A stretch of 64,000 bases of DNA from Fragilaria crotonensis (taxonomy: Eukaryota > Bacillariophyta > Fragilariophyceae > Fragilariales > Fragilariaceae), in contig JAKSYS010000090.1 of the NCBI GenBank assembly GCA_022925895.1, positions 62,001 to 126,000 of the forward strand, written 5' to 3'. The position numbers and the translations under genes are program-made. Within the stretch, counting starts at the first letter, position 1; the number at the start of each line of letters is the position of its first letter. Positions 754 through 25,692 of the stretch are shown here, piece after piece. The notes beneath the pieces were generated by a model. The model was not told the DNA's origin. It saw nothing but the letters and a program-made list of their open reading frames with translations, and did no database searches.

Positions 754-2973
754 TTACTTGAGGGCCTTACCGGCTGCCAAAATTTTCTGCTTTGCCGAAG
801 TGAAGGTCCCGAAAAGATTGTTTTTGAAGTGCTGTCGGTGTTTCCCCACCCTCTCACCATCCTGACCATCAGGCATGGAGATGGAGGTGCAGTGACGCAA
901 TGCTCTGCCATCCCAACTGATTGCTGCCCCATGACTAAGGCGAACCGCAAGACCAGAAAATTGTACTCCATCAGGACGCTTCCCATGCACGTTTGGCATC
1001 ACAAAGTACCAATTGGAGCCCATGGACGGAATTTCCTCAGTCCACACAGCAAAGCCCTGTGATGCATCATGGACGTCAAAATGGGATGAATTTCCCAAAT
1101 TAACACTCGTATCAATGGTAAAGCCAACTCGTTTCCCATCAGCTCCATCCATTGGCTCTACCGGTTCCAATCCAGAATCTGCCTCTGTGCTCAGGATCAC
1201 GCTTAGGACATCTGGGAAACATAAATGACCAATTTCATGCATCGCAACAACCATATCGCGAAGTGTTTGGTGTGGAACACAGTCATTGGTGACAAATGGG
1301 ACGGCGACAAGGTCGCCATTCTGCACCCTGGTACCTAGAGCATGCATTGACCCGACATCGCCTGTGTTATTCCGTACGCTTGGAGAGGAAAGTGCCTCAT
1401 GAATTGCAGAATTGCAGCTAGTGATACTCTGCAACCATCCCTGAACTTTCTGACCGCCAGAACTTTTAGTCTTGCCAAGCTTGACAGCGTGCCTGACTTG
1501 GAGAACAGTGTGCATGTTCAGGCAATTTCCTGAGGGTTCCCCATCAATCATCACATCAATAATTGGATTGATTGTGGGGTCGAGGACCCAACACGTGCTG
1601 GGCAAATTGAAATGGTGGCATCCTGTTGCGTAGTTACGACCACCCTCTCTTGCCGAGTTTGAAAACGCCAATTTGTGGTTGTATAACAATTTAAGCTCCT
1701 CTAGTGGCCATGTGCCAGCATCCTCTCCTGAAAACACATCTGGTGGCATTTTCGGGCCATTGCTGTCGAGACAATGGCCTGCCCGGTAGATGAGACTGTG
1801 GTCGTCAGGTTGTAGCCCCAAAAAGCCAAGTTTCCACACAGAAATAAGCTTTTTGTCATCCTGGAACAAACCCTTGACATAACTATCTTCTCCAAACGTA
1901 TAGTAGGGGGTACCGTCCGGATTATGACAACGTTTGAGGCGTAGCCAACTCATCGGAAGTGGGATCAATGATTTGTCAGAACCAACATCGGGATGCACTC
2001 TATCCCTCGCACAATAGAAAATCCCAGCATTGGGAATGAATGCAAGGCAAGTCCTGAACAGGTAGTCAAGAGGGTCGTCACGTTTGCCAGAGTCATAGCA
2101 CTTCATCGGGGCAACAACATCAGGATCAACAAAATTACTCTTGCCGGCACCCATTGCACACGTGCGAGGACAGCCAGTGCGGTCAAGTACCACATCCATC
2201 AGATAGACTTCGCGCAAGGAATCCTTTGATGACCCCAATTTCACACCATTTTCCTCAAACATTTGGGACAGCAATGACAGTTGACCCAGCTGAGGACACG
2301 GATAACACACCTTCTTCAGTGCACGCACAATGTAGGAAAATGGAGTACGGCACAGCTTTGACTCATCAGGTGAACACGAGCCGTCGGTAATGGCATCACG
2401 AAATTCCTTCTCGAATTCCTTTTGCTCCGGAGAATCAGGTACAAATGGAAGAGCCTTCACGAGCAAGGACAGCATTTCTTCCTGTGAAGGTAGACACTCC
2501 CTGGGTGAGCGATGGGGAAGGTGTTGCCGGACGCCATCATTGCAACGGCTCTTCCTTTTCTGGGTGCACTCCTGTTTTGTGTGATCAGTTGCTTTCCGGG
2601 CGGCCGTGCTCGTCTTCTTTCTTGCACGACGTTTCGCACGACGTTTTGCGATATAGATGTCGCGGCACTTCTTGTTTTTCAGAATACGAACATTGTTATC
2701 CAGAGCCCTGTTTGTCTTCGCGGCGGCAGCATCAGCGCCGCCGCCGTTGTTCCCAACGCCAGTTGCGGCCGTCACTGCCTTCCCGGAATTTCCATTCGAT
2801 ACCCCCTCCCGAACAGATTCGTCAACATTTGGGCACAGCTTGTTGTTCTCCGTGAGAAACGACGCGCAAAAAAGTCTTGGGGAGTTACCCATGAGTAGCA
2901 CCGCAGTGCGAGACGAGGACGTCCTCCTCTTCAGAGCGATACGAGCAACGTCATTACTCAGATTTGGGGACAT
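754..2973 (-). CDS. Transposon-associated protein family, intact copy 1 (putative Fe/2OG dioxygenase-like core)
   Basis: 739-residue uninterrupted frame with ATG start; I do not recognise the protein by name. It is clearly homologous to two broken copies at 4754-6822 and 16775-18974. The N-terminal third is low-complexity and basic (KRRAKRRARKK near residues 109-119, a likely nuclear localisation signal). Blocks shared by all three copies include LPSQ near 160, FYCARD, SWLRL, a GR-Y--GC-H--LP-TCW--DP block, NTGDVGSMHALGT near 536, NSSHFDVHDASQGF (H631, D633) and ISWDGRALRHCTS (H694). H-x-D followed about 60 residues later by His on a predicted strand fits a double-stranded beta-helix Fe(II)/2-oxoglutarate oxygenase. 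I see no conserved 2OG-binding Arg at the usual spacing, so this is inference. Unlike the other two copies it has no transposase beside it in view. It is flanked by a hairpin array at its 3' side and a minisatellite at its 5' side. Confidence 0.75.
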   Translation of the reverse strand: MSPNLSNDVARIALKRRTSSSRTAVLLMGNSPRLFCASFLTENNKLCPNVDESVREGVSNGNSGKAVTAATGVGNNGGGADAAAAKTNRALDNNVRILKNKKCRDIYIAKRRAKRRARKKTSTAARKATDHTKQECTQKRKSRCNDGVRQHLPHRSPRECLPSQEEMLSLLVKALPFVPDSPEQKEFEKEFRDAITDGSCSPDESKLCRTPFSYIVRALKKVCYPCPQLGQLSLLSQMFEENGVKLGSSKDSLREVYLMDVVLDRTGCPRTCAMGAGKSNFVDPDVVAPMKCYDSGKRDDPLDYLFRTCLAFIPNAGIFYCARDRVHPDVGSDKSLIPLPMSWLRLKRCHNPDGTPYYTFGEDSYVKGLFQDDKKLISVWKLGFLGLQPDDHSLIYRAGHCLDSNGPKMPPDVFSGEDAGTWPLEELKLLYNHKLAFSNSAREGGRNYATGCHHFNLPSTCWVLDPTINPIIDVMIDGEPSGNCLNMHTVLQVRHAVKLGKTKSSGGQKVQGWLQSITSCNSAIHEALSSPSVRNNTGDVGSMHALGTRVQNGDLVAVPFVTNDCVPHQTLRDMVVAMHEIGHLCFPDVLSVILSTEADSGLEPVEPMDGADGKRVGFTIDTSVNLGNSSHFDVHDASQGFAVWTEEIPSMGSNWYFVMPNVHGKRPDGVQFSGLAVRLSHGAAISWDGRALRHCTSISMPDGQDGERVGKHRQHFKNNLFGTFTSAKQKILAAGKALK

Positions 2974-3042
2974 GATGCGGAAAATAGTACCTCGCGGAAT
3001 TGTTACACGTCACAATCGGTCTCAATTCCAAACCAAAATCAC

Positions 3043-3420
3043 AATAGCCACGTCGCAACTGATGTCGGTTCGGCAGTTCCCCGTCACGAACGCAAACTCC
3101 ACTGCACCAAATCGCAAGCGCAACCACCACTCCTGATGTATGACAGGTAGTGGCTATCGCAGCGTTGCAACTGGTGCTGGTTCGGCAGTTCCCCGTCACG
3201 AGTGCAAACTCCACTGCACCAAATCGCAAGCGCAACCACCACTCCTGATGTATGACAGGTAGTGGCTATCGCAGCGTCGCAACTGGTGCCGGTTCGGCAG
3301 TTCCCCGTCACAAACGCAAACTCCACCACCGAACCAAAATTGCAAGCGCAACCATCACTCCTGATGTATGACAGGTAGTGGCTATCGCAGCGTCGCAACT
3401 GGTGTCGGTTCGGCGGTTCA
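3043..3420. repeat. Tandem ~112-bp minisatellite upstream of copy 1
   Basis: About 3.4 units of a 112-115 bp repeat, recognisable by GGTTCGGCAGTTCCCCGTCA and CTGATGTATGACAGGTAGTG. Units begin near 3043, 3146, 3258 and 3373. The array starts about 70 bp upstream of the ATG of the minus-strand gene ending at 2973, so it occupies its promoter or 5'UTR. The minus-strand frames through it are repeat artefacts. Confidence 0.9.
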
Positions 3421-4092
3421 TTAAGATGATTGTCAGCTTGTCCTTCGCAAACAACAGTGATGCAATAACAACAATAAGGAACAACACCGACGCAATGACA
3501 GTCAAGGTACAATGAGCAGCAGCAAAAGCAGCAACAGTAATGAATTGTTGCAAAAAATGAGCATTTAAATGTAGTAGCAGACACAATGAGCAGTTCGAAC
3601 TTTTCAAACTAACATGTGGCAACCGGGCTGGCGTCGATTTTGGCAAACGGTCAAAGTAACACACATGTATGTGCGGAAATTCGGTTTGCAAAAATTACAA
3701 AGCCAATTTCCAGGATTCCTATGATGTCACGATGACAAAATTGGAGTGCCAGTTAATCGGATCTGCAGGGTTATTCTCGAATGACCTCCTTCAAAGCGAT
3801 GAAACAAGAACCACCTTAACAACTAGTAGTACTCGCCAAGTCATTTACAACTATCCACAATCTTCAACGTCGACAATTTGCTATGCTTCATAACGGCAAA
3901 GACCACCGAAAGAAAGACCCTTTTGTGGCCTCCTGGAAACTCCGTGCCGAAAACACTGATGACGGATGGACGATGATTTGTGCAGCGGGTTTTATTCAGT
4001 GTATTATGTATTATGTACAAGGTGCAAGTTCTACCGGTACTATTACTGGAACCACCTACGACTAGTACTAGAGTAGGTGGTACACGATTTTG
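3421..4092. other. Intergenic stretch, no gene seen
   Basis: Only short frames without family features. From about 3960 it contains GTAC-rich words (CTACCGGTAC, ACTAGTACTAGAG) like the host intergenic DNA further right, suggesting the accessory block meets host-type spacer here. Confidence 0.5.
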
Positions 4093-4108
4093 GTGTACTC
4101 TAACGGTA
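4093..4108. repeat. Left copy of probable LINE target-site duplication
   Basis: GTGTACTCTAACGGTA here and GTGTACTCTACCGGTA at 30499-30514 agree at 15 of 16 bases. They bracket everything assigned to the minus-strand LINE, with this copy beside its 3' end. Similar GTAC words are common in this genome, so chance is not excluded. Confidence 0.5.
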
Positions 4109-4148
4109 AAAAAACCCCAGATCTAATTTAACGTACTGCCGCGGCGTT

Positions 4149-4156
4149 CAGATTAA
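4149..4156. repeat. Left target-site duplication of MULE
   Basis: CAGATTAA here and AAGATTAA at 11221-11228 directly abut the two ends of the inverted repeats: 7 of 8 bases match. MULEs normally make 8-10 bp duplications. Confidence 0.7.
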
Positions 4157-4728
4157 GGGGAAATTACAATATCGCGTGTTTTTCAGCCACTTTTCAATAT
4201 AGTACAATGACCCTCTATATACAACTTTACATCTTACTATATCACCGATTTGCTTTTGACGTTTACAATATCACGCATACATTTGTTCATATATTACTAT
4301 ATCACGCAAACGTGATATAGTAACACATTTTGTCGCCAGCCACATCTTCTCTCCACAGATAACATGGTACACCGTATTGTAGCCAATGTCATAAATGAAG
4401 AATGGCCAACCTTGCACCACAACCTCTTTCTCTGTCATTTTGTTTCAATCTCTTGTACCTCTCAGTTTGATTGCGCTAATGTGGTAGTTGTTATCACTCT
4501 TGTAGTGTGGTCATTATTTGCGTTGTGCTTCGTCTGTGTTGAACGTTCAAATTCAAATTGACCATTGTGGGCGATGCATTTGAATCAACTGAACCTGATA
4601 CAGTAGTCTACGCACCTTTTGGTATACAGTACCATAATGTTCATCTGAGAAGTACATGAACCTAAATCCAGCCGCTTGTCGTCACCCTCATCGAATGCAA
4701 CATGACGCATATAGTTGTTATGCACACT
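4157..4728 (+). repeat. MULE left terminal inverted repeat
   Basis: Reverse complement of 10649-11220. The outer 170 bp carry iterated AATATCRCG/TATATCACG words at about 4165, 4236, 4265 and 4298 and a perfect palindrome at 4294-4323, likely transposase-binding sites. The inner part has a 65-codon frame (4364-4561) duplicated in the other arm; I do not think it is a gene. Confidence 0.93.
4294..4323. repeat. Subterminal hairpin in left TIR
   Basis: TTACTATATCACG, four bases CAAA, then CGTGATATAGTAA: 13-bp perfect arms. The mirror copy is at 11054-11083. The stem contains the TATATCACG word that recurs elsewhere in the outer TIR. Confidence 0.85.
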
Positions 4729-4753
4729 TGAACTACCTGCCTATTAGAGACTA

Positions 4754-6822
4754 CTAGCTGGGGCAACTTCGTTTGTCGTGGCCGGCCGCAGCCACTTCTA
4801 GGCACGGACTTTCAGATGCATGAGCACGGCCAGCGGCTACAATCTTCTCCTTTGCCGCAGTGAAAGTGCCAAATAAGTGATTTGCACCTTTCCAACCAGT
4901 TCCTACGGGCGCAGCACCTTCACCGTCTGGCCTAGACACAGATGTGCAGTGCCTCAGTGCACGGCCATCCCAGCTGATGGCAGTTGCATGAGAAAGCTTT
5001 ATGGCGATGCCGTTGTAATCCGTACCACATTTCCTCTTGCCGTACAAATTTGGAATCAGAAAGTACCAGTTTGATCCACAACCCGGCTTCTCCTCTGTCC
5101 ATAGACTAAAACCCTGTGAAGCGTCATTCACATCGAAGTGTGACGCGTTTCCCAGGTCAACGCTTACATCAATTGTGTACCCAACCCGGAGGCCCTTACC
5201 ATTTCCATCCATCGGAGCTATTGGCACAAGGGACGAATCGGCTTCCACGTTCTGAACAACAGAAAGGACATCCGGAAAACAGTAGAGGCCAACAGTGGCA
5301 AAGGCCTCGACAAAGCTCCTCAGTAACGGTTGAGGCACCTTATCGTTTGCAGCGAACCCGACAGTTGTCATTCCATCCAACAGGACACGGGTCCCAATTG
5401 CGTGCATTGTACCAACATCCCCGGTATTCTGCCTCGCCGTGCCCACCGCTGCTTCTCCGAAGGCGAGAATTGTGTTCACCGATCACCTCGATGGAAGCAA
5501 GTAGGTCATGCCTGCCCATATGGCAATACGTTGACTCGTGGGAACCATCAAGAATACTCCTCACCATGATAATCGACTTCCTCCCAACTGCACCAGAACC
5601 ACTGGGGGCGATGTCGACAATGATATCAACGAATGGGTGTTCCAACGGGTCAATCGTCCAACAAGTGTCGGGGATTTTCAGGTGCAAGCACCCCGGGGCG
5701 TAATGTCGACCACCCACCCTTGCTGAATTCGAGTTGACAAGGCGGCGATTGTATTCTTGCGCACGGTCAGCAACTGGCCACGCACCCACATCGTGTCCAG
5801 CAATAATGTCTGGTGGCATCCGAGGGCCATCATGATCCGCACATTGCGTTGACACGAACACTTCGCGCAGTAACCTTGGTGCTGCTGGATAGTACGAAAC
5901 TCTCCAGGCAGAGACCCCAGCACTCGTAACGGAAGCAAACCTCTTCACGTATCCATCCTCTCCAAATTGTAAACGGAAGTCCGACCCCGGTGGAACCTGC
6001 ACCGACATGTTCGTCCTTAGTCGAAACCAACTCATGTCGAGAGCAATGCGTGAACCTTCAACACCCTCAGTCTTCCTGCGCCAGTCCCTTGCGCAGTAGA
6101 ACACTCCCGCCCCCGGCAGGAAAGCAAGGAGAGTCCTGTACTTGTAGTCGTTGGCATCGTCAAGATCCTCAGGTCCGCTTGCAGGCGCCATAATTACATC
6201 ATCAGGTCCCAATGCAACAACGTCCGCGTCACCAGCTTTAAAAGCACTACTTATATTTAAGGTCGCAGCGGCCGTCGGAGTAATCTTTCGGTTACATATC
6301 ACATCCATGAGAATGAACTCCGAAAGGTACTTCGAAGTTGTGGCATGTTTCATGAAGACCTCATCCAGTGAGCGCAATTGCGTGATGGCACTGCAATTAT
6401 CACTAACTTTATAACCGGCGGCTTTCACCTGCTCCTCGTCAGCAAGCCGAAGGTCCTTGCAGATCGAACAATTAAGCGCATACGATATCCATCTTAAGGG
6501 CGTGCCGCATACCTCGACCTCGCCACCAATAGTTCCAGTCAAAGCTGCAGAACGAAACGCAATCGTAAAATCGGAAGGGAAAAATATCCCTCCCATCCAG
6601 GGAAGCACTTCAGTAGCAGTGCCAACACTTTCGGACCTGAAGGAAGTAATTCCTTCTCGCCCGCTTTCGTGGCATCCTGTTACTGAGCCGCTTCCTCGAG
6701 GCGGGCACCGCCACCACCCTTGGATTATCCTTCCCGAGGTTTAGTACAGTAGTGCGACAAATCGACGTCCGACCTCGCATCTTCAACGCATCATTGTCTT
6801 CATTCCGAACCAATCCTGACAT
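4754..6822 (-). pseudogene. Transposon-associated protein family, copy 2 (MULE cargo), frame-broken
   Basis: Homologous along its length to the 739-residue protein at 754-2973. The N-terminus from 6822 (MSGLVRNEDNDALKMR) matches the copy 1 start; the middle (ATG 6608, 422 codons) has FYCARD, SWFRL and the GRHYAPGC-TCW block; the C-terminal part (from about 5479, 241 codons) has QNTGDVGTMHAIGT, NASHFDVNDASQGF and ISWDGRALRHCTS. Three frame changes are visible: two near 6600-6660 around a segment reading ELLPSG, and one near 5470. No large deletion is evident, so it could be a recently inactivated gene or one hit by sequencing indels. The H-x-D and distal His are kept. It is transcribed away from the transposase, with 677 bp between the two starts, so a shared divergent promoter is likely. 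It ends 26 bp inside the left TIR's inner edge. Confidence 0.8.
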
Positions 6823-6837
6823 ACTACCGTGAACTCC

Positions 6838-7015
6838 CAGCTAGATGGCAGGCAGAGACAGCGTATCGTCAGTCAGCAGCACAACAAACACGCCCAGCTA
6901 GATGGCAGGGAACTGATGATGTGCTTCCAAGCGGATCGAATAAATGATGAGCAACGAGCGTCCATGCGCGTCGTCCGTAAGCAGCGCAACAAACACCCCC
7001 GGCTAGATGGCAGGG
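6838..7015. repeat. Degenerate minisatellite at 5' end of copy 2
   Basis: The core CNGCTAGATGGCAGG occurs at about 6838, 6896 and 7000, each preceded by CAGCRCAACAAACAC-like sequence and followed (last two) by GA-ATGATGATG. It starts about 15 bp upstream of the copy 2 ATG. A related core, CCACTGGATGGCAGGG, occurs in the array upstream of copy 3. Confidence 0.75.
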
Positions 7016-7498
7016 AAATGATGATGCGCTCCTCAACAACAGACGCAATGCTGATCAGCAAGAAGTCAATGTGTGTGAGAGGCAGCAAAGTGTGATCAAG
7101 GAAATGCATTTTCGCGCAATTTTGCATTTGGTTGACACCCTGATGTACTGGCGTACACGTATGTATGCATACGTGGTGTAGTATGACGTTGTCATTGCGC
7201 GCGTGCAAGACGTCAAAAAATTCATACATGCCACAGTTCATTAAGTGTCTATTCTTGCGCGCAAGAATAGACACTTAGGGAGTATCTGAACAGATTTGTA
7301 CCATACCGGTAGTAATACAACAGCAATGCGGTTTCCAATATACAGTAAAGTATTTCATAAGGATGCAGTGCCGTTTATAACAGTTTTAAGGAGTGATGCC
7401 AATGTAGTACAAATACAGCATAGCTACTACTTCTTCATCGTCTTCTCAAAGCATTGTTTCCTTTTTGTCGTCAAATACTGATCAGAACACGATAAACC
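7016..7498. promoter_or_regulatory. Divergent intergenic/promoter region of the MULE
   Basis: About 480 bp with no gene, between the array next to the minus-strand accessory gene and the transposase start. It contains a 36-bp perfect palindrome (7242-7277). Position suggests it drives one or both genes; no core promoter element is clear. Confidence 0.5.
7242..7277. repeat. 36-bp perfect palindrome
   Basis: Left arm TAAGTGTCTATTCTTGCG is followed directly by its exact reverse complement, with no loop. The symmetry stops exactly at both ends. It lies about 220 bp before the transposase start and 420 bp before the accessory gene start. Confidence 0.95.
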
Positions 7499-10400
7499 AT
7501 GGCAAAGAAGGCAAAGAAATGCTTTCCAGGCGATCCCCGCTTTTCGGGATGGATATCTCCAAGTAGCGAGGATATTTCTGCACTACCGCGTAATGCTTGG
7601 TTGAGCACGTTGCTGTTGGACTGCATACTGCAGCGATCTGCGCCGCCGGTGGATGTGACATCCACTGACACTTTTCATATTGGGAGTCTTGGCACCCGAA
7701 CTTACATCCAGTCATGTAACGATCTGATCACGTATGTACCCAATGGACCCGACGCGGTTCAAGTGGGGAGGGCAAACCGACGAAAAGTTTCACGCATTCG
7801 TGCATCTTTGCAATCTTGTTTCCGATCCCGTCCCGTCAGCAGGCTCCTTATACCGATTGTCTTGGTACACCACTTTTTTGTGCTTTGCTTGGATTGTTCG
7901 TTCTCTAGTCGAGAATTTATTACCAATTTGACAATTTACGATTCCCTGCAACGCCGCACTCGTCAAATTAATCCCGACGTCGCAACCATCGTAAAGGAAG
8001 TCAACTACTTCGTGCGGTTCTACATTCTTCAAGAGGAGGAACATGAGCACCTTCGACTGACGGATGAGGCCTTGCTTAAACGAGTGGAGTATGGAGAATG
8101 TCCACGTCAGTTGAACGGATTTGATTGCGGTTTATTTGCAGTTGGCATCGTTTTGCACCTTGTCGAGGGTAAGGTGATCACGATGGAAACGTTTACTCAA
8201 CAAGACATCACCGGTTTGCGGGCTAAACTGACGGCCGTGTTTGGGGGAGAGGGCACCGGATTAGGGACGACAAGTCAGGTTGTCCGCGCCTGCTTCCCAA
8301 AACTGAATGGAAGTAGCATCCTTGATACTTTTGGTGTGGAGGTACTGGACGTGCCTGCCGCGGAAGTACACCAAGTCAGGTCGGCGGGCGGCAGTTCGAT
8401 TACGGAGGAGGTGGAAACTGCTGTGAACAAGGAAAACACGATGGATACTGCTGGCCATTTGGGAAGTGACGAAGACATGGAAACCGCTGTGGAAAAGTGC
8501 GCATCACTACTTGATGCTACTGACGATGATTCGGCGAATGGCAACGAGGATGCGCTTAGTTATCACACTTGCGAGGACAGCGAGAGCAGTAGTGAGCTTA
8601 AGGATGATAATGTTACAGATTTTCGAACAGGAAATGAAGGGAGCAATCTGGCAAAGCCAGTGCCCGTCAACAAGTCTCCTGACGTATTGTTCTATGACAT
8701 AATGAGGGACGCGAAGGTGGATTGCTTTGCGACGTTGGAAGAGGTGATGCCATTAATTGAAACGTATGAGATTCGGTCAGGAAATCACTTGCGGGTGCAA
8801 CGCTCACTCCGAAATCAATTTAAGCAGTTCCAATGTCGGGAGCACGTCGACTGTCCATTCCAAATTTTAATATCGAGGCGGCGATCTGACGGCAGGTTTG
8901 GCGTGTCGAAGATTAAGGGTTTGCATGGCGACGTGCGACGAGCTCCGCTCGCGGCTGATGGGCGGCATTGGAAGAAGCGACATCCGAACCTGCATGGAAT
9001 TATTGGTCAGGTGGTTCAAACAAAGGAAGGAACACCGACACCGGCAGACGTTCAGAAGACGGCTGCGACACGTTCTGGTCTGATTGTGCCGTACATGACT
9101 GCGTACCGAGCACTGACCCATGAAACAAGCGCTCAAAAGGCTGCAACGTTGAAAAACTTCGAGATGATTGTCCCTTTTTTGGAAGCGTTGAAGAGCTGTA
9201 ACCCTGATTCCATTATTGGATGCGAGAGGGATAAGGACATGAGGGTCGTTGAGCTGCATGTTTTCCCCGGGATCATGAACCGAGCGCTGAAGTTTGTGCG
9301 CCCGGTACTGTCTTTGGATGCCGCCCACCTGAAGAGTGTGTTCAAAGGCACTCTGTACGTTGCATCAGTTCTGACGGGTAGCAATGATATCTTCCCAATT
9401 GGATTCATGATCTCGGCAGGCAATGAGGATGGTGCTTCGTGGCGAAAGATGCTTCGTTATCTGAAGAAAGCGTGCCCAATCATTGGAGAGCAGGTGTACG
9501 GGAATGTTGACGTGGATGGGGTCGCGAGGCCCCCATTTCTGTTCATTTCTGACCGAGACAAGGGTCTGAAACCGGCGTTGAAAGCAGTGTTCCCTGATAA
9601 TTTTGAGATGAGCTGCGCAAAACACATCGAGGGCAACGTGGCGCAGAAGTTTGGCAAGCAGTGTTCCAAATATGTATTGGCAATTGCAAAAACATTTTCG
9701 ACAAGAAATTCTAGTCGCTTATTTGAGGAGGTACGCAGGATTAAGCCGGAAGCTGCAACGTATCTGGATGAAATCACGGACAAGGATCGTGTTCTGTGGC
9801 GGACCACTCAGTGGTACTCATCTTCTACCGCCGTTGTCATTCCACCAAGGTATGGAATTGTGACGTCAAACACAAGTGAGGCAGTGAACAATATGTTCTC
9901 TGAAGCTAGAGACCTGGGGTGGTTAGAGTGTGTGAACAAACTCATCGACATCATGTCGACAAGGATATACGTGTGCAGAAAGAAGTACAGTGAACGTGAG
10001 GGGTCCGAAGTGGTGCCTAGAGTTGCGCAGATAATGAAGGTTAGGTGGGATGCAGCTGCTAGCATGACGGTTGTCGAGTTGGAAAGTGGATGCGGTGACT
10101 TTAAGGTCGTAGAACCATCATCACTTGCGGAGGATGACCTTGCTGAGAATACAGTACGATCGTCAGCAGGATACCTGGACCAAAACCGCATCAACATAGT
10201 AAAGCCAGACCTTCAATGGTGCAGCTGCGGTGTCTGGCAAGACTTCTTGTACCCCTGTCGACATGCGTGTGCAGTCTTCAGGAAATGGAAAGAAAAAGAC
10301 TTCACCTATGTCATCGGCAATTTGGTGCATCCCTACTACAGTTTCGAGTTTGTACAAAACACGTTCAGGAGCAACGTCTTCCCCGTCTGCTTGGAAACAC

Positions 10401-10624
10401 TCGAATATGATGGCGTGACGAAGGAACCAGCATTGCCAAAGCGACAGGCGGGACGCCCGAAGACAAAACGAATTCGCAGACGAAGTAAATTTGTCGAATT
10501 GAAGCAGTCGCCTGTAACATGTTCCATCTGTGGGAAAAGGGGTCACAACCGACGAAGTTGTGTTCCGTCTGTGCAGAAAGGTGCCAAGTCCAACGAAATT
10601 GCCCCAGTCTCTAATAGTGTCTAA
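7499..10624 (+). CDS. MULE transposase with N-terminal Ulp1-type protease domain
   Basis: Intact 1041-residue frame, ATG at 7499. Residues about 30-220 look like a C48 (Ulp1/SENP) cysteine protease: H125 in HHFFVLCLD, D148 in YDSL, Q204 in PRQLNG and C210 in FDCGLFAVG. An acidic linker (about 270-380) follows. Next comes a FLYWCH/FAR1-like N-terminal region (CREHVDCPFQ) and the MULE transposase core: DAAHL near D606, ISDRDKG near 684, CAKHIEGN, and TSEAVNN near E795. A SWIM zinc finger (CSCG near 908, then CRHAC) and a CCHC knuckle CSICGKRGHNRRSC near 1008 complete it. It should cut and join the element ends in the nucleus; the protease may act on SUMO or ubiquitin-like conjugates. Plant Kaonashi MULEs also carry Ulp1-like domains, so the pairing has precedent; a direct N-terminal fusion in a diatom is the notable point. 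Confidence 0.92.
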   Translation: MAKKAKKCFPGDPRFSGWISPSSEDISALPRNAWLSTLLLDCILQRSAPPVDVTSTDTFHIGSLGTRTYIQSCNDLITYVPNGPDAVQVGRANRRKVSRIRASLQSCFRSRPVSRLLIPIVLVHHFFVLCLDCSFSSREFITNLTIYDSLQRRTRQINPDVATIVKEVNYFVRFYILQEEEHEHLRLTDEALLKRVEYGECPRQLNGFDCGLFAVGIVLHLVEGKVITMETFTQQDITGLRAKLTAVFGGEGTGLGTTSQVVRACFPKLNGSSILDTFGVEVLDVPAAEVHQVRSAGGSSITEEVETAVNKENTMDTAGHLGSDEDMETAVEKCASLLDATDDDSANGNEDALSYHTCEDSESSSELKDDNVTDFRTGNEGSNLAKPVPVNKSPDVLFYDIMRDAKVDCFATLEEVMPLIETYEIRSGNHLRVQRSLRNQFKQFQCREHVDCPFQILISRRRSDGRFGVSKIKGLHGDVRRAPLAADGRHWKKRHPNLHGIIGQVVQTKEGTPTPADVQKTAATRSGLIVPYMTAYRALTHETSAQKAATLKNFEMIVPFLEALKSCNPDSIIGCERDKDMRVVELHVFPGIMNRALKFVRPVLSLDAAHLKSVFKGTLYVASVLTGSNDIFPIGFMISAGNEDGASWRKMLRYLKKACPIIGEQVYGNVDVDGVARPPFLFISDRDKGLKPALKAVFPDNFEMSCAKHIEGNVAQKFGKQCSKYVLAIAKTFSTRNSSRLFEEVRRIKPEAATYLDEITDKDRVLWRTTQWYSSSTAVVIPPRYGIVTSNTSEAVNNMFSEARDLGWLECVNKLIDIMSTRIYVCRKKYSEREGSEVVPRVAQIMKVRWDAAASMTVVELESGCGDFKVVEPSSLAEDDLAENTVRSSAGYLDQNRINIVKPDLQWCSCGVWQDFLYPCRHACAVFRKWKEKDFTYVIGNLVHPYYSFEFVQNTFRSNVFPVCLETLEYDGVTKEPALPKRQAGRPKTKRIRRRSKFVELKQSPVTCSICGKRGHNRRSCVPSVQKGAKSNEIAPVSNSV

Positions 10625-10648
10625 AAGATAATAGGTAATGACAATTTT

Positions 10649-11220
10649 AGTGTGCGTAACAACTATATGCGTCATGTTGCATTCGATGAGGGTGACGACA
10701 AGCGGCTGGATTTAGGTTCATGTACTTCTCAGATGAACATTATGGTACTGTATACCAAAAGGTGCGTAGACTACTGTATCAGGTTCAGTTGATTCAAATG
10801 CATCGCCCACAATGGTCAATTTGAATTTGAACGTTCAACACAGACGAAGCACAACGCAAATAATGACCACACTACAAGAGTGATAACAACTACCACATTA
10901 GCGCAATCAAACTGAGAGGTACAAGAGATTGAAACAAAATGACAGAGAAAGAGGTTGTGGTGCAAGGTTGGCCATTCTTCATTTATGACATTGGCTACAA
11001 TACGGTGTACCATGTTATCTGTGGAGAGAAGATGTGGCTGGCGACAAAATGTGTTACTATATCACGTTTGCGTGATATAGTAATATATGAACAAATGTAT
11101 GCGTGATATTGTAAACGTCAAAAGCAAATCGGTGATATAGTAAGATGTAAAGTTGTATATAGAGGGTCATTGTACTATATTGAAAAGTGGCTGAAAAACA
11201 CGCGATATTGTAATTTCCCC
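10649..11220 (-). repeat. MULE right terminal inverted repeat
   Basis: Inverted copy of 4157-4728, ending CGCGATATTGTAATTTCCCC at 11220. The inner edge begins 25 bp after the transposase stop codon, so the transposase 3' end probably lies in the TIR. The hairpin copy is at 11054-11083. Confidence 0.93.
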
Positions 11221-11228
11221 AAGATTAA
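11221..11228. repeat. Right target-site duplication of MULE
   Basis: AAGATTAA, matching CAGATTAA at 4149-4156 at 7 of 8 bases. Confidence 0.7.
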
Positions 11229-11309
11229 AAACGCTCGACCCGCACGACTAGACACTCCCAGTACCGTAACCAGAAGCGGCCAGTAGTCAATCCCATGATG
11301 AGTAAGGTG

Positions 11310-12451
11310 TTACTTCTTTGGCCCGAAATAAGCTGTGATGGACTTCATTCCCTGGATAGCCTTGGCTTTTGCTCGATGGATACTCTGCCTGACCAGTGGT
11401 CCGTAAACTGCTAACCAATTTTTGTTGTAAGGCACCGATTTGGTGGAATGCTCGGTGATATCGCGGCACAACAGTTGCTGGATGCTCGGTTCCATCTGGT
11501 TCCGAGCGTCGTATATGTCGGCTAACATGCGATCGACTTCTCGACGCTCTGCCTGGTTCCTCGATTTGGAATCTGCGCCGTGTAGCGATTGGTTTCGGGT
11601 AGCCCACAAAAGGAACCACTGGTTCCACAACGTACTGATAATTGCGATCTGCCATCTTAGCCCAGTTTGTCGTTTTGTATCGATCGAATGAGCCCGTCGC
11701 GCATAGTATTCATCTTGGAGCGAGCTCCAGTCGCTAGAAAAACGACCCAGGAAAACGTGTTCCCATCCGATTGCGTTCTGCTGATAAACTAATCTGCGAA
11801 TCGCTGCGGATGCTGTGCTCGGGGCGTTGAGTTGATAAGGAACTTCTTCGTTTGAGTGGAGAAACCATTCCCGGAGCGCCTGCAACAAGATGTCTTTCAA
11901 ACGCGGCATTGTGTGGAGGTCGTCGCACTTCCGTGCTACCACATGGACCATCGATGCACGCCAAGATGTATGGGCCTCCGACGTACACCGAAGGATATGA
12001 CTCCACGTCTCCGGGCAGACTTGGCAGCTTGGGCATCGATTGCGACGAGGGTCGCCGCGATGGAGTTTTGCGTTGGTCGGAAGTAACCCATGAACCAATT
12101 TCACCAGGTGAGTTCTCTTATTGATGTGACGTTGCATGGCTTTACCGTGTGCAGTCCAGTTTATTACAGACATAGTTTGTGCCGTCCATGAGTACCGCTC
12201 TCGCATATGTTCTTGTAATTCAGGCGCCGTCGCTTGGTACCGTAGAGCTGTGTCGTAGTGTGCAGTGACTGTTCCGGTTGGGAATTCCAGATGCACGCCC
12301 GCCCATTCTGTAAGTAACACCTCTGGTTGAAAAGATCCTAAATCGCGTTGATATCGCGATGCTTGAGCGTCTGCGTCGACGTTCAACTGGGCGAGGAGCG
12401 GGAGGCAATGATATGGAGTATCGCGGTCTTGATGACCTTTTACATGTTCAT
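11310..12451 (-). pseudogene. LINE ORF2 C-terminus: end of RNase H plus Cys/His domain
   Basis: Open frame of roughly 380 codons on the minus strand. It begins at the Plavaka-like insertion border with HVKGHQDRD and NVDADAQAS, the last catalytic part of a LINE RNase H domain. It then runs through a C-terminal domain with a Cys/His cluster (CPSCQVCPETWSHILRC, about 12000-12060) and ends KSITAYFGPKK. The missing first part of this RNase H is at 22466-22860, on the far side of the inserted transposon. The frame is clean, unlike the rest of the LINE. About 80 bp of 3'UTR lie between the stop codon and the MULE; a further 48 bp lie beyond it. Confidence 0.8.
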
Positions 12452-12483
12452 CAGAAGGTGCGTAATGGTGAGCTCTCCCTAAC

Positions 12484-13041
12484 ATGGCAAGATTTAGGCA
12501 GTTAATGGTAATAATATGGTTGCTTTTAACAATATTATTGTTATAATTGACATTTACATAGGTAAATCATATACGTGTATGGGGCATATGTACTGATGCG
12601 TAGCTAGATATCGGCATGTCTTCTTATTTAAAGCAACATTGAAGGTTTGTTCATAAATTTTACATTTTATAGATGCAACATTTGATAACGTTTGCTGTTC
12701 GTTTTGGACATTTGTGATGTAGTATGAAACATTGGATTGTAATTTGACATTTTATTTTCTTATTTAACGACATGTACCGGCGATTGTGTGCATATTTTAC
12801 CGCCAATTCTGCCATTTGATTTGGATCTTGCGCGCTTTAAAATTTTCCACTGAACGTAAAGTTTAAATGTGTAACCATGCTTTGTACCCACTCAAAATTT
12901 CATGTCATTGTTTCGCACGAAGTATGTATCTTGCAAACGTTTTGCTGTTAAGTATTCACTCTTGTAATTGTATTTGTCCAGTCACATAAATGGTTTTTTT
13001 CACAATCATCGATTCACTTTTGACTTTCAAGAACTGCTGTC
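12484..13041. other. Plavaka-like element 5' noncoding region
   Basis: AT-rich sequence between the left terminus and the transposase start. I see no gene; short AT-rich imperfect inverted words only. Confidence 0.5.
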
Positions 13042-16000
13042 ATGTCATCGGTGCCAACTGGTGGTAGTGTTCGTTGTGCATGTTGCAATGCAGCTTTCCA
13101 TCGACTGTCCAGTCACCTTTCTTGGAATGCACGTTGTGCCGCTTTCTACGATAGCTTGCCATCAGATATGGTCAACAACGGAGTTCTTGATGACGTGCGC
13201 AAACCTGATGCTTCAGATTGCAACGAGGAATGTGATACCGCTGGTGCAGGACAATCAAGAAAAAAATTCTAGGCGTGAAACAACAATTGACAAACCAATT
13301 GATGACCATAACAATGAAGGGTTTGATGACGACTTTGGTATGATGTCTGATGGTGATGTCTCTGTTTGTAACAGCAGTGAGGAATCAGAGGATGAGAGCG
13401 AGGACAATGAGATCCCTGATGGGATCATTTTGGACTTGTACGAGGAAATGCAGGAGTTACGATTGAATCCATTCGGTTTGGACAGGTTCTCTGGTGAAGA
13501 AAAGGTACATATAGAGTTATTGCATCTACTGAAGGAACTAAAAGCGCCACTGAAAGCCTTTTCAGGCATTCTCAATTGGGCTGCGAAGGCAAATGGCCAG
13601 GGTCACATATTCCATCCCGACTGCCAACCTTCTCGCCGCAAGGTTGTCCATAACTTGTATTGTCGGTACAACATGAAGGGATTGATTCCGAAGGAGAAGT
13701 TGTTCTACCTCCCTTACTCCAGGAGGACAGTACCAATGATATATTTCGATGCCAGGGAAGTCTTCGCATCCCTACTCTCCTGCCCTTTGCTGAATCGTGA
13801 TGAAAACTACCTATTCGATTCGCCAGAAAAGGATCCTTTCATTGGTCCCCCCCCAAATCATCGATGATTGGTGACATCAACACAGGACAGTGCTACCGAA
13901 AGACATACGAAGCCCTGGTGAAAAATCCAGATGTCGATATGATTTTACCCACAATCGTGGCCATGGACAAGACACAGGTCGACACTTACGGTAGGCTTCA
14001 AATGGAGCCACTGACCATATCCCATGGTCTTCTGAAGCACAGTGTTCGTTCGAAGCACACCGCAATGCGAATTCTTGGTTATGTTTGTCATAGCAGCCCT
14101 GCACACCAAACCAAGATGAAAGGCGGTGTTCCTGATACTGTTACACCGCGCCCATACCTGCCTGACGGCAGCGTGATTGCCCGTGTACCCCTGAAACCAC
14201 TCCCAGGTTTGCCATGGGCAACATATTTACTCAACGAGATGCACCTTCAGATTGAGTTCATCCTCGAAGTATCGGGATACCTTGACCTCCAACGTCACGG
14301 ATTCAAGTGGAATCTCCATTACAACGAGAGAGTGTATCCAGTGGTGCTGCACCCCCTATATTCCCTTCATCATTGGGGATACCGAGGGACACGATCGCCT
14401 CTGTGGGCATTACACTGCCCGATTTGAAAAGGTCAAGCAGCTTTGCCGTGTTTGCGAATGCCCCACACGTTTATCAGGGTACTCGAAGGCAAAGTTTAAC
14501 CACAGGAAACCAGCAGCCATAAACCGATTAATCGCTGGTGCCAACTCAGCTGTAAGTCAAGTAGGTGCCACCGCAAACCTGAACGCACTCAAAGACATGT
14601 CACAAAACTATCTGCGCAACGGCTTTGGCAGGGCTCGTTTCGGATCACACAATGACCGCGGAATTTTTGGCGCATGCCCTGGTGAGATGTTGCACCTTGT
14701 ATTGCTAGGTTGGTTCAAGTACTGCCTCGAAGCGTTCGCATCCCAAGCGGGGGGCCAAAATTCTGTGGCAGTGAAACGTCATGACGCGCTGTGTGCAAGA
14801 ATTGGCACACAATTGTCAAGACATAGTGATCGTGACCTCCCCAGAATGAACTTTCCCAAGGGCTTCTCATCTGGTACAAATCTCATGGGTCACGAGATCA
14901 CTGGATGCCTCCTGGTGAAGTTGTTTGCACTTCATACCACCTCATTCAAGAACATATTCCCGACCAAGAAGAAGCCCCCCAAGAAGGTGATGGCGAAGCA
15001 CACGAAGGTGAACCACATGAAGCCCAAGGCGAAGAAGGCGGGGGAGCCAGAAGGCAAGGCAAAGAAGAAGAAGGCGAAGAGCAAGGCAACAAAGAGCATC
15101 CCCACCCATCCTGATCACAATCTCCGCTTCGAATGCCATGTATCTGATTGGATATTGGCCGTGTCGTCACTCCTCCAGTGGCACCAGTGGATGAAGCAAC
15201 CGGAAATGCCAAGGCATCAAGTCGTGAAGTCCAAATACGCAGTCCAGTGGCTCATGCGCAATGTTGCAAACATCTGTCCTCGACAAACTGGAATGGGAAA
15301 CAACACAATCAAGAATCATCTGGTGTTACACATTTGCGAAGATATTTTGGACCATGGTGTGCCCGAGAATGTGAACAGTGCCTACGCTGAATCTGCTCAC
15401 ATACCACTTTCCAAGATGACAGCCCGGAACACACAAAAAAGGGCGAAGACTTTCACAAAGCAAGCGGCAGAACGATATGTAGAGAACCTCGCCATTTCGT
15501 CAGCAGTTTATGACATGGAATGCGACCACGCCAGCATGGCGAGGGGAAGGTCAGCAGCGGCAGAGGACAGCAACACATCAGCAGATAAGTGGAAGCTTGG
15601 CGGCCGGAAGTTCACGATCTCATGGCCTCTTGGCGATGCACGTCCATCATTCCAGTGGTTTCGCAAGTATCCAGGGATCATCCCCATGGAGACTCCCTGC
15701 AGGGGAAGGCAATGCATTACCTTGCAACGTATTGTTTGCCCCACACAGGGGATGGGGAGCTTCGGTGTTGCACAGAGTTCATCTCCGCTGAGGGACACAA
15801 ATACAGGGCCCATCCAAGCATCTATGACGGTCAACCATGGCATGACCACGCCATGGTCGAGTGGCCAAACTATAAGTATCCCCATCCCCTCCCAGCGTTC
15901 ATCCACACGTTCATTGACTTGCGAGACCTGCCTCCGATCACGAGGATCAACATCCCCGAAGTTGGACAAGAACCCATCAAAGCTGGCGTGTATGCACTGG

Positions 16001-16476
16001 TGCACTCATTCCTTGCCATCGACGAGGAAAACACCAGAATGGACAGCAACACCATGATTGGGCGTTACAAGATGTGGTACCATGACGAAGAAGCAACATA
16101 CCCGATTTTATATCTGATCGACGTCAGAAACATTGTGGGACCAACGATTGGAATTCGCGATGTTGACCCCACTGTTCGTGAACAAGACGAGTCTTTCCTC
16201 TTCCTCTTCCTAAGGAAAGAAGAGTGGGCATCAGCGTGGGACACCATGATCACAAGCTGCCACAAAGACAGGCATAAACCAACTTTTGAGAAGGATTACG
16301 AAGTGAAGGTTCGTAATGAAAGAGATGGTGATGATGATGAAGACGAGGATGATGATGAAGATGAGGATGACAACGACGATGATGAAGGTGATGATGAGTC
16401 GGATGACGACGACGAATCCGAAGTTGATATTGTTGCCATCAGGTCACATGAAACACGGAAGAAACGCCGAAGGTAG
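13042..16476 (+). pseudogene. Plavaka/CMC-like transposase, frame-broken
   Basis: Starts at 13042 with a possible zinc finger (CACCNAAFHRLSSH----C), then an acidic region (about 13300-13430). The core includes PTIVAMDKTQVDTYG, LTISHGLL, SVRSKHTAMRILGYV, then FIIGDTEGHDRLCGHY with CRVCECPT, and FGACPGEMLHLVLLGWFKY. The DKTQ block followed by a ...R...A..LGY line matches what I know of Plavaka transposases in the CACTA/Mirage/Chapaev group. The C-terminus from about 15700 ends in an acidic run of Asp/Glu (16318-16420). Four frame changes are visible, all at or next to mononucleotide runs: A7 at 13260-13266, the C8 run near 13857, C5 near 14350 and G4 near 15700. That pattern fits either decay or sequencing error. 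Confidence 0.7.
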
Positions 16477-16774
16477 ATGTCATCTTTGCTATTAAGAGTG
16501 TTTTCACCGTATCATCTTCGGAATTCGGTATGTAGTAGCATGGGGACTTTCGACAGGCAACAAGGGTTCAGTAAACTTCGGCACCACACCACCATCATCC
16601 TCATCATCATCATCGTCATTATCGTCAGCAGCCTCATAAGCAACATGAGAATGCCTCCGCCGCAATCTCTTCCTAACTTTCTGTCGTCTCCTCCTCTTCT
16701 TGGCACTTGTCGCTGGCATGCTTGACCCTTCCAAGTCACCACTGGCAATGGCAGCAGCTGCAGGGTTGGGGCGT
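16477..16774. other. Convergent spacer between transposase and copy 3
   Basis: About 300 bp between two convergent genes. It contains a run of TCATCATC-type codons read on the minus strand as Asp/Met-rich peptides; no separate gene is supported. Confidence 0.4.
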
Positions 16775-18974
16775 TCAGGACGATCCACAGCCAGCCATAG
16801 CAGCAGACATCTTCCTCCCGGCGTCAACCACCCTTTCCTTTGCCGCAGTAAACGTCCCATACAGATGATTCTCCGTATGTCGCACACTTCCAGCCCAATC
16901 ACCAGCGGCCCCTTCAACAGGGGGACCATCCGGTTCCGACACCGACGTACAGTGTCGGATATCTCGACCATCCCAGCTTACGGCAACTCCGTTTGTGATC
17001 TTGATAGCAAGGCCAGCAAAGGGGACCCAGGTCGAGTTGGGACCAGGACGACGTCCATGGATGTTTGGCATCACAAGATACCAGTTCGTTCCCTTTCCAG
17101 GAATGTCTTCCAAAAACTGACTGTAACCCTGAGAGGCATCGTTGAAGTCATAATGAGAAGCGTTTCCCAGGTCGACACTCGTGTCGACAGTGTATCCAAC
17201 TCGCCGTCCACCCTCACCATCCATCGGCACCACAGGATGGAGACCACAATTCCCTCAGTGTCGCGGATCACAGCATATACCTGAGGAAAGGCACACCTCC
17301 CAATCACTGCGAGGAGACGACCATTTCCTAAGGAGAGCCTCACCCACAGCCTCATTCCTTGTATGCGCTTGTGGTGACACCATCCAAGTGCACATGAGTT
17401 CCAATCGCATGCATGGTGCCGTAATCACCAGCATTGGACCTCGCTGCACCCTTCTTCTTTGCAAGTCTCAAGGCCTTATTATGCTTTGTAATACAAGCCA
17501 TCGCCTCCAAAGATCCTCACCCCCATCGTCAGTCAGGAAGTTGACATTCCTCACCATGATGACCGACTGCCGATTCCTCTGCTGACCAAGGCAAGGTAGG
17601 TCCACCATGATGTCGACAAAGTGTTCAGATGCCGGATCGATGATCCAGCACGTGTCCGGCAGACGATAGTGATGACACCCCGCGGCATAGTGACGCCCGT
17701 CCCGCCTTGCACTGTTCGCAACTGCAAGGCGTTGGTTGTATTCTACCGCCAGATATTCCCGTGGGATGTCGGGCTGCCATGAACCATCGAAGACATCAGG
17801 TGCCACCTTCGGGCCGTCGCTGTCCCGACATTGTTCCACCCTGTAGACAACCCGATTCTGCTGCAAATCCTTCGTGAGGTTCAAGGAAATTCGCCATGCC
17901 GAAACACGGTCAACGAATTCGTCAAATCACCCACATGAATAGCCACGGTACTCCAAGTACCGAAATTGTTTTTGGTTCTTCCATATGAAATCGCTTGACA
18001 TACCCTCCCTTGCCGAAGGTGTACGACACCTTCCCATTACTGTCGGTGCTCCTCTCAAGGCGAAGCCAGCTCATGTCCAGGGCCACATGTGTTTTAGCCA
18101 CACCGACATCCTCCTTGCGACGCTCTCTGGCACAGTAGAAAACGCCACATTGAGGCAAGAAGAGTATCATGGTGCGAAACTTGAAATCATTCTTATCATC
18201 AAGATCGTCTTCATGGTATGATCTGACCAACAGGACATCATCTTCACCCCCCACCACCGATGAAGCAGCCTTCTTTGTTGGAAGCTCGGCACTTGGTTCG
18301 GTTTTCATCAAAGGCGATCTATTGAGGATGACATCCATGACGTAGATCTCGCTGAGGAAGCATGACTCCATCCCAGAAAATGGGAACATGTCAGCCGCGC
18401 ATTGTAGTTGGTGTACGAAGTTGCATCCGTATGCAGCGGCTATCCAAGCAACGTTAGTGTTGCATACCTTTCGCGTCGTTCCAGCCAGGGGACACGGAGA
18501 TGTCTCCTTCCCAGTCGCGAAGGCATGATAGCGCTCCTTGAAGTGAGCTCTATCCTCAGGAGGCACCGCCATCGACAGCAATAGCATAGCTTGTCTCTGC
18601 GACGGCAGGAATTTGCGCTCCGGTCGATTCGGCAAGCATGGACCGTCATAGCCACCAACATCGCCTTCATTATCGCTATCGCCATCAACGTCAAACAACA
18701 AGTCATCATCCTGATTGCTATCGCTATCAACCTCAAATACCAAGTCATCATCCTCCTTTCCATTATTCCCATCATCGTGGATGTCATCCTGGCCATTGTG
18801 ACAAACGCCATCTTCGCCGTCAGTCGCACAAGACGACGATCGCTTCTCCTTCGCTGACGCCCCAAGGTTTCGCAAGCCTGTCGCACAAGACGACGTTCGC
18901 TTCTTATTAGCTATACTGCGCTTATCACGTCGACTGGACGACATAAAGTTCTCGTCTTGCTCCTTCGTAGGCAT
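16775..18974 (-). pseudogene. Transposon-associated protein family, copy 3 (Plavaka cargo), frame-broken
   Basis: N-terminal frame of 350 codons from 18974 (MPTKEQDENFMSSSRR), with acidic DDD-rich repeats, FLPSQRQAML, FYCARERR and SWLRL. It is followed by a frame at 17468-17884 with the GRHYAAGC-TCWIIDP block, one near 17355-17460 with a degenerate GTMHAIGT block, and one at 16775-17233 with DTSVDLGNASHYDFNDASQGY and VSWDGRDIRHCTS. At least three frame changes separate them, and near 17930 the match to the other copies is disturbed for about 35 bases. H-x-D becomes HYD and the distal His is kept, so the putative metal triad is conserved in all copies. It is convergent with the transposase and divergent from the gene at 20344. 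Confidence 0.8.
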
Positions 18975-19190
18975 CGTTCAACCCACTGGATGGCAGGGCA
19001 CGACGTCAACTACAAAAGAACGACAAGAGAACGTTCACGCCGCGACAGTAGACAAAACCAGCGATCCTGTTCTCGTCTTGCTCCTTCGCAGGCGTCGTTC
19101 AACCCACTGGATGGCAGGGAACGACGTCAACTACGAAAGAACAAAACGAGAACGTTCACGCCGCGACAGTCGACAACAACAGCGATACCA
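18951..19190. repeat. Two 120-bp direct repeats spanning the copy 3 start codon
   Basis: TTCTCGTCTTGCTCCTTCG opens each unit, at about 18952 and 19072; both contain CCACTGGATGGCAGGG and end near GAACGTTCACGCCGCGACAG. The first unit includes the copy 3 ATG and first codons, so a piece of coding sequence was duplicated together with its upstream region. Confidence 0.9.
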
Positions 19191-19512
19191 GAGCGACAAT
19201 CAACAACAATAACTTGCCATTGCCAAGAAAAAGCAATAACAAACTGTGTGTTGTTGTCGTCGAATTGGAGTGAATTTATTCTACGAACAAATGGCGTAGA
19301 AAACATACCGCATTGCAGATGCGAAATACATGTGTATCCGAAAAAGGGAAAATGCGAACTGACTTTACTATGCATTTTACAGTGGAGCTATCCCAGGATT
19401 AACCTGGGACTTCAATGCAGAAACGATTGAAAAATCTATTTCTAAATGTCTTCAAGCTGCTTACAACAAAGCACTGTACAAAACATACCGCAGAAATTTT
19501 TATTCATGATAC

Positions 19513-19800
19513 TTAGCGAGGACCACACCTGTCCAGCGCACATAAGTACTGATACGGTTAGTTTATATAAATAATCGCATTTGAATAGTATATTATAAAC
19601 ATTTGAGCACCATCATAATACTTAGCGAGGTACACACATGTCCATTGCACACAAGTACTGGTATAGTGCTTTTATATAAGAACAGGGATACGAATAGTAT
19701 AAACACACACATGAGCACAGTGATTACATTTAAGGAGAAACACATGTCCAACGCACACATGCACTGGAAGAGTGCATTTATATATATATACGCACAATTA
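19513..19800. repeat. Degenerate ~108-bp tandem repeat
   Basis: Three units marked by ACACNTGTCCANNGCACACA at about 19525, 19635 and 19742, each followed by a TTTATATA stretch about 30 bp later. AT-rich noncoding DNA between the divergent copy 3 and the gene at 20344. Confidence 0.75.
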
Positions 19801-19916
19801 AATTGTTAATTTGTATATATATCTCAACACACATGTCAAATGTACAAGTTCATTAGTATTAAAATCATAGTCTCTGTTACTCTACGCGTAATATGAGGAC
19901 CTTGATTCGGAGTGTC

Positions 19917-19934
19917 GAAGTGCACGTGCACTTC
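19917..19934. repeat. 18-bp perfect palindrome
   Basis: GAAGTGCACGTGCACTTC, centred on CACGTG. It lies between divergent genes of the Plavaka-like element, a position comparable to the 36-bp palindrome in the MULE. Confidence 0.85.
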
Positions 19935-20343
19935 AACGCACGCACACGCGTAGATACAGTACCAGAGCGAAGTCCTGCCTTGCATCGTGAGGGAACACCC
20001 AAATATTGAAAACGACTGACCATGCCCTATACGCTTAAACTGAACCGTATATTCTTACATAGAAGCCATATTGCTGTTACACGAGCAATATCTCGTTTAT
20101 TCAAACAATGCACATGCATTTTTAAAGCATTCAACTACACTTTTGAGTATACAATACATACATATGCACATTTGAGGGGGTTCGCATTCACTGTTTGAAT
20201 GGGACTTTGCCACAATAATTTGTGCAGCAAACACCATTATTGATACCATAGAATCTCAAAACAGAAAAGGAACAAACACAACTCATCGCTCTTCTGCTTC
20301 TCTAGTTGTTTTCATTGGCTTCACTTGAGTTGTTGGACAAACC

Positions 20344-24247: not shown

Positions 24248-24290
24248 GGAGAATTGCCACTGTAGTATGTGATTAGAGCACTTAGAGAGC

Positions 24291-25676: not shown

Positions 25677-25692
25677 CCGTTGCGCAGTGAGC

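Follow-up and report, generated by a model that had tools for sequence, protein, structure and literature searches.

We analysed a window of 64,000 nucleotides (nt) from Fragilaria crotonensis (contig JAKSYS010000090.1, positions 62,001 to 126,000), which holds three copies of one accessory protein family, referred to here as copies 1, 2 and 3. Copy 2 lies within the termini of a Mutator-like element (MULE), copy 3 within those of a Plavaka/CMC-type DNA transposon that is itself inserted into a retrotransposon, and copy 1 lies to the left of both. The genes and termini concerned are as follows, in window coordinates.

754–2973, minus strand: copy 1, a single unbroken open reading frame (ORF) of the accessory family, 739 codons, 739 aa
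4157–4728, plus strand: left terminal inverted repeat (TIR) of the MULE, 572 bp, matching the right TIR at 571/572 positions
4754–6822, minus strand: copy 2, the MULE accessory gene, with its stop 25 nt from the left TIR
7499–10624, plus strand: MULE transposase, a single 1041-aa ORF, ending 24 nt short of the right TIR
10649–11220, minus strand: right TIR of the MULE; the flanks of the element are CAGATTAA / AAGATTAA
12449–22468, plus strand: Plavaka-type element, 10,020 bp, with CATCA..TGATG termini, TIRs matching at 18/24, and a target-site duplication (TSD) TT, inside a retrotransposon
12968–16476, plus strand: Plavaka transposase region, in several frames, with the Pfam Plavaka domain at 13864–14427
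16775–18974, minus strand: copy 3, the accessory gene of the Plavaka-type element, with 7 frame breaks flagged
20344–21957, plus strand: a further ORF of the Plavaka-type element, 537 aa

An initial annotation of this DNA had placed one protein family at these three positions, with a set of named blocks in the same order in each copy and an intact gene at 754–2973, and all of this was borne out. In tblastn searches of the 64-kb window, copy 1 matched the MULE copy with E=5e-74 and 6e-55 and the Plavaka copy with E=2e-72 and 2e-30, plus a short piece at 3e-4; among the matches listed, all other sequences in the window scored E>=0.44. Frameshift-tolerant alignments, which start from copy 1 residue 158 or 152 and leave the N-terminal ~150 residues unaligned, gave identities of 256/571 between copy 1 and the MULE copy (2 frameshifts), 249/564 between copy 1 and the Plavaka copy (7 flagged frame breaks, two of them flanking an insertion) and 245/548 between the two element-borne copies, that is, 44–45% over 548–571 aa for all three pairs. 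The 548 columns aligned in all three copies include 173 that are invariant, among them the collinear blocks FYCAR, TCW, GD-G-MHA-GT, SH-D--DASQG and SWDGR--RHCTS, and judged by these alignments the similarity is far beyond what chance would give. Only copy 1 is an uninterrupted ORF, both element-borne copies being frameshifted; in the MULE copy the frameshifts lie near 6607 and 5441, with one further frame change upstream should the gene begin at the ATG at 6822. Residues 101–120 of copy 1 form a basic stretch (12 K/R of 20) that would be compatible with a nuclear protein.

The MULE spans 4157–11220. Long TIRs and a TSD of about 8–11 bp are the mark of a MULE, and here 572-bp TIRs are flanked by an 8-bp repeat with one mismatch (7/8; CAGATTAA vs AAGATTAA). 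The transposase matches PF10551 (E=4.4e-7), Transposase_mut (2.2e-5) and SWIM (5.3e-6), so that the view of this element as a MULE carrying the gene, put forward in the initial annotation, is upheld by the 571/572 TIRs and by a transposase with Peptidase_C48, MULE and SWIM domains. The layout is compact: the element holds two divergent genes, cargo and transposase ending 25 and 24 nt from the respective TIRs. Given these bounds and the position of both stops, the accessory gene is built into the MULE. The transposase ORF opens with the Ulp1-type peptidase domain (Peptidase_C48), fused to the MULE and SWIM domains, an arrangement reminiscent of plant MULEs with ULP-like genes, and a 36-bp perfect palindrome lies at 7242–7277, between the two divergent genes. 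No relative of the MULE transposase was confirmed in the viral contigs scanned.

The bounds of the second element were found from a published terminal signature, generic inverted-repeat searches for its ends having given nothing above chance. PlavakaB elements have CATCA..TGATG ends and 2–3 bp duplications, as set out in a paper on transposons that carry TET/JBP genes (Kojima 2025, PMC12730594, section 3.2.2), and we located the ends by applying this signature to 11221–13000 and 18975–22650. These stretches contain one CATCA and 16 TGATG, and a single pair, 12449/22468, has a matching duplication, TT; a 2-bp TSD among 16 pairs is weak alone. Compared over 24 terminal bases, the two ends agree at 18. 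Excision of the element together with one TT rejoins the frame of the interrupted retrotransposon (PEWDIISGIQSLLQEMPDITLQ + HVKGHQDRDTPYHCLPLLAQLNVDADAQ, reading in frame from LQ into HVKGHQD), and control joins in which 0, 1, 3 or 4 bases were removed lose that frame, which itself has one stop further upstream. This restored empty site is strong evidence for the bounds of the Plavaka element. An alternative origin of the end match, from homologous retrotransposon coding sequence on both sides, was considered and rejected, the locus being one retrotransposon split by an insertion. The Plavaka transposase domain is recognised by PF18759 (E=4.2e-7; score 30 bits, cut-off 26.3), and copy 3 is convergent with the transposase. 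Thus the initial annotation was right to name a Plavaka-type carrier, given this domain, the ends and the TSD, and fell short in its extent: the element reaches 22468 and takes in the further ORF at 20344–21957. This 537-aa ORF found no family match in Pfam or NCBIfam, and no second copy in the window (tblastn, E<=1). The split retrotransposon occupies 11221–12448 and 22469–26919, and the MULE directly adjoins its 3' part; its matches to RVT_1 (E=1.1e-6) and Exo_endo_phos (3.3e-4) are both slightly under the Pfam cut-offs.

We then asked how old the sharing of the gene is. In agreement with the initial annotation, the transposases of the MULE and the Plavaka element are unrelated by sequence, with no detectable similarity (best E 0.21). 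The three accessory copies are equidistant (45, 44 and 45% identity), the third bases of 4-fold sites agree in 25–33% of cases (120–132 codons per pair, taken from codons sharing their first two bases), which is the level of saturation, and nonsynonymous divergence (dN) between copies is 0.57–0.59. Because the copies are equidistant and synonymously saturated, the sharing between MULE and Plavaka elements is ancient and conservation of the protein is of long standing; by the same measure a recent exchange is excluded, and the direction of any exchange is unreadable from the copies. The claim that the gene had been "shared or exchanged" therefore stands as to common ancestry, which is clear, with the qualification that equidistance and the 25–33% agreement at 4-fold sites put any exchange in the distant past and leave its direction unreadable. 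Furthermore, gene order differs between the elements, the cargo being divergent from the transposase in the MULE and convergent with it in the Plavaka element, and the whole block was therefore not swapped.

The context of copy 1 is less complete, as its 3' end lies only 753 bp from the start of the window. A search of the window allowing <=3 mismatches found no further MULE TIR, and there was no Plavaka-like end within 5 mismatches apart from one poor match inside the gene (997), and no CATCA sequence in 1–753. Copy 1 may stand alone, as the initial annotation had it, or may belong to a third element with its transposase to the left of the window.

All three copies have tandem repeats on their 5' side, and two of them share a short motif, CTGCCATCYAG. 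These repeats and sites, with a further repeat array 3' of copy 1, are listed here; no strand is assigned to the repeats.

261–724: 62-bp tandem repeats, 3' of copy 1
3044–3419: 112-bp tandem repeats, ~3.3 copies, upstream of copy 1
6841–7030: two 65-nt units, 105 apart, upstream of copy 2
6841, 6898 and 7003, on the gene strand of copy 2: three CTGCCATCTAG sites, upstream of copy 2
18948–19186: two tandem 121-bp units, at the start of copy 3
18986 and 19107, on the gene strand of copy 3: two CTGCCATCCAG sites, upstream of copy 3

Exact CTGCCATCYAG occurs at 5 sites in the 64 kb, 3 before the MULE copy and 2 before the Plavaka copy, all on the gene strand. Allowing <=1 mismatch there are 7 sites, against a mean of 1.9 in shuffled sequence, and 0/100 shuffles reached 7. 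The longest word common to the 300-nt regions upstream of copies 2 and 3 is the 13-mer GTTCCCTGCCATC, whose score of 13 was attained by 3/593 random segment pairs. The 62-bp repeats at 261–724 have an inner symmetry, TGCAAAAA...TTTTTGCA.

Relatives of the cargo protein were sought in several collections. When copy 1 and pieces of copies 2 and 3 were compared with Pfam, only LydB (0.16) and OprF (0.12) came up, both below cut-off; neither Tet_JBP (PF12851) nor DUF1985 or DUF287, the domains of the VANC proteins, was among the matches. Against PDB sequences there were weak matches only, judged to be chance, the best for copy 1 at 0.27 and for a C-terminal profile at 0.028, to a viral glycoprotein. 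The viral contigs scanned yielded no confirmed relative, none of 73 pattern matches in prokaryote genome contigs was confirmed, and the C-terminal 248 aa found no tblastn match in phages or plasmids. Nine further loci in prokaryote contigs were set aside as chance: the best tblastn match to copy 1 among them (E 0.001, over 25 residues) is out of frame with the sole ORF listed there, and the remaining listed loci gave short or weak matches. In a profile search of 294 genomes, 11 had matches at E<=0.1; the lowest value was 0.011, every match was partial, 6 of the 11 listed had internal stops, and these were taken as noise. PF12851 was found in 0/246 of these genomes, a result that is uninformative since the control genomes were also without a match.

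One feature of the protein offers a lead to its function. H631-x-D633 and H694 are invariant in 3/3 copies, inside the best conserved C-terminal block, and this HxD...H order is that of the Fe(II) triad of the 2-oxoglutarate (2OG)-Fe(II) dioxygenases, the superfamily to which the TET/JBP enzymes belong. The putative ligands would fit such an enzyme as a lead only.

One ancient accessory family is thus present in two well-bounded, unrelated DNA transposons, and most likely it acts for the elements that carry it, through the putative mechanism that follows. We consider that there is about an even chance that an old gene family has become an integral accessory gene of two unrelated superfamilies (MULE and Plavaka/CMC), that its product is nuclear, and that its likeliest role is to counter silencing. 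On this proposal the gene would be held inside the termini of both elements and its protein, given the basic N-terminus, would act in the nucleus to the benefit of the element, putatively by counteracting element silencing. It might do so as an enzyme acting on a mark on DNA or chromatin, as the C-terminal HxD...H order would allow, or as a DNA binder directed at the motifs repeated beside the start of its own gene. The proposal is supported by the collinear homology of the copies, by protein conservation in the face of saturated 4-fold sites, by the compact MULE layout and the bounded Plavaka element with its restored empty site, by the repeats 5' of all three copies, by the motif ahead of two of them, and by the TET/JBP and VANC precedents. 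We rank anti-silencing first among possible roles because the targets of VANC proteins often form tandem repeats (PMC5735166). Taken further, the family, unrecognised by the libraries searched and probably an HxD...H enzyme, would be a portable anti-silencing module outside fungi and plants, present in at least two superfamilies since before synonymous saturation and perhaps able to bind the motif upstream of its own gene; this fuller version is doubtful, and we offer it tentatively.

Several observations weigh against an anti-silencing gene of this kind. The cargo of a MULE with fresh-looking TIRs and transposase ORF is frameshifted, which may mean that the gene is not needed in cis or may reflect assembly errors; possibly the copy was already broken and was moved in trans. 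CTGCCATCYAG was not found upstream of copy 1 in the window search, the copy 1 upstream region shares only 8- and 6-base words with copies 2 and 3, and the motif, found by inspection and not predicted, is suggestive only. For the cargo family neither Pfam, NCBIfam and PHROGs nor PDB sequences gave a credible match, and homology points to no function. Against PF13640 (2OG) proteins, hhalign probabilities were 0.05–0.14 per cent, a negative that says little for a 3-sequence query profile; the proteins compared came from 25 loci (PF13640 was absent from 8 genomes and present in 18/99), with many pieces truncated in one comparison and 8/25 lacking HxD in the other, where some pieces may be wrong. 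Two structure predictions were poor, with mean predicted local distance difference test (pLDDT) scores of 35.9 and 31.2, probably because homologues are lacking, and our reading of the alignment shows no conserved Arg/Lys beyond the distal His, where 2OG is usually bound. Finally, the CpG observed/expected ratio, a possible trace of methylation, is too uneven to use, at 0.73–1.17: it is 0.77 in the copy 1 gene, 0.73 in the Plavaka transposase, 0.86 in the whole Plavaka element, 0.97 in the MULE, 1.03 and 1.17 in the retrotransposon, and 0.98 in the remainder of the window (34–64 kb).

MULEs are known to take up host gene fragments, as a MULE survey describes (PMC6446971), and a host gene family could have been caught independently by two transposons in the manner of Pack-MULEs, with copy 1 as the host original and no role for the element. 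The intact ORF of copy 1, beside which no transposase is visible, and the frameshifts in both element-borne copies would agree with this. Both elements, however, carry a near full-length gene and not a fragment; the MULE cargo sits 25 nt from the TIR, with repeats on its 5' side, and the fit of two genes whose stops lie 24–25 nt from near-identical TIRs is unlike that of a randomly captured fragment. The copies are equidistant at ~45%, which excludes that a single recent host gene was captured, and we regard independent capture as unlikely overall. Less likely still is that the protein is a second transposition protein, helping the transposase as TnpA of En/Spm and MURB of MuDR do, and not an anti-silencing factor. 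Such helpers typically bind tandem repeats and short motifs, and the presence of both here, with the gene inside both elements, speaks for this role; against it, one helper would have to serve two dissimilar transposases with different termini, and CTGCCATCYAG lies near the start of the cargo gene, not at the termini.

The anti-silencing proposal also has a sharper form, the odds of which overlap with its own, namely that the cargo is a TET/JBP-type 2OG-Fe(II) dioxygenase and the algal counterpart of the fungal system. The invariant H631-x-D633 and H694 in the best conserved block are what would be expected of such an enzyme. Fungal Plavaka elements carry TET/JBP genes, and divergence can be so great that for one fungal type HHpred gave only E=1.4 to CMD1 (PMC12730594, the latter in its section 3.2.3). 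Since neither Tet_JBP (PF12851) nor any other 2OG Pfam model was matched, and the PF13640 profile comparison and the structure models described above lend no support, we place this possibility somewhat short of an even chance.

Some other genes in the window are ordinary, encoding acetyl-CoA synthetase, Band 7, ABC1 kinase, tesmin-like CXC, DnaJ and sulfotransferase proteins. Were the family indeed a factor by which transposons of an alga counter silencing, algae would join fungi (TET/JBP) and plants (VANC) as groups in which portable genes of this kind arose or spread, and transposon-encoded countermeasures would look like a general rule. It would also provide a tractable target for work on diatoms, in which overexpression of young elements is known to accompany loss of a DNA methyltransferase.

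The closest known arrangement is that of the fungal DNA transposons carrying TET/JBP genes, reportedly described by Iyer et al. 2014. In a more recent account, TET/JBP genes of one type are found in seven transposon lineages and those of another type in five, including Plavaka (Kojima 2025, PMC12730594); the main text of that paper does not contain "diatom" or "stramenopile", and its MuDR passages treat other cargo. As in those fungi, one accessory family extends here across unrelated superfamilies, including a Plavaka element with CATCA..TGATG ends, and shows the HxD...H order. Unlike them, the cargo has no detectable Tet_JBP match, the host is reportedly a diatom, one carrier is a MULE, a group absent among the lineages of the Kojima abstract, and the copies diverged too anciently to show recent transfer.

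The VANC anti-silencing proteins of Arabidopsis VANDAL elements provide a second comparison, in that an accessory gene is carried by a MULE-type element and short motifs lie in tandem repeats of its non-coding parts (PMC5735166). The present cargo differs in having no match to DUF1985 or DUF287 and in belonging to a family that also occurs in a non-MULE element, and the likeness seen here consists of repeats and a shared motif only. Among stramenopiles, a Sola1 element of Ectocarpus bears a DNA methyltransferase gene, according to PMC12477816; it too is a DNA transposon whose accessory gene, a suggested modifier of epigenetic marks, runs opposite to the transposase, and it differs in both protein and superfamily. 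Within diatoms, the MULE survey describes a group that has a single ORF and, apart from a SWIM finger, no motifs (PMC6446971). For Phaeodactylum, a correlation has been reported between loss of DNMT5a and both reduced methylation and overexpression of young transposable elements (PMC9998398).

Among the open-access papers listed we found neither this family nor its MULE carrier nor a diatom or stramenopile case, which does not imply their absence from print. The suggestion of an undescribed system in the initial annotation therefore applies to the family and the MULE carrier, and not to the kind of system, which has been published in fungi (see the sections of PMC12730594 cited above). Within the limits of this search, the protein family and its MULE carrier look new, as a case of a kind of arrangement that is already known.

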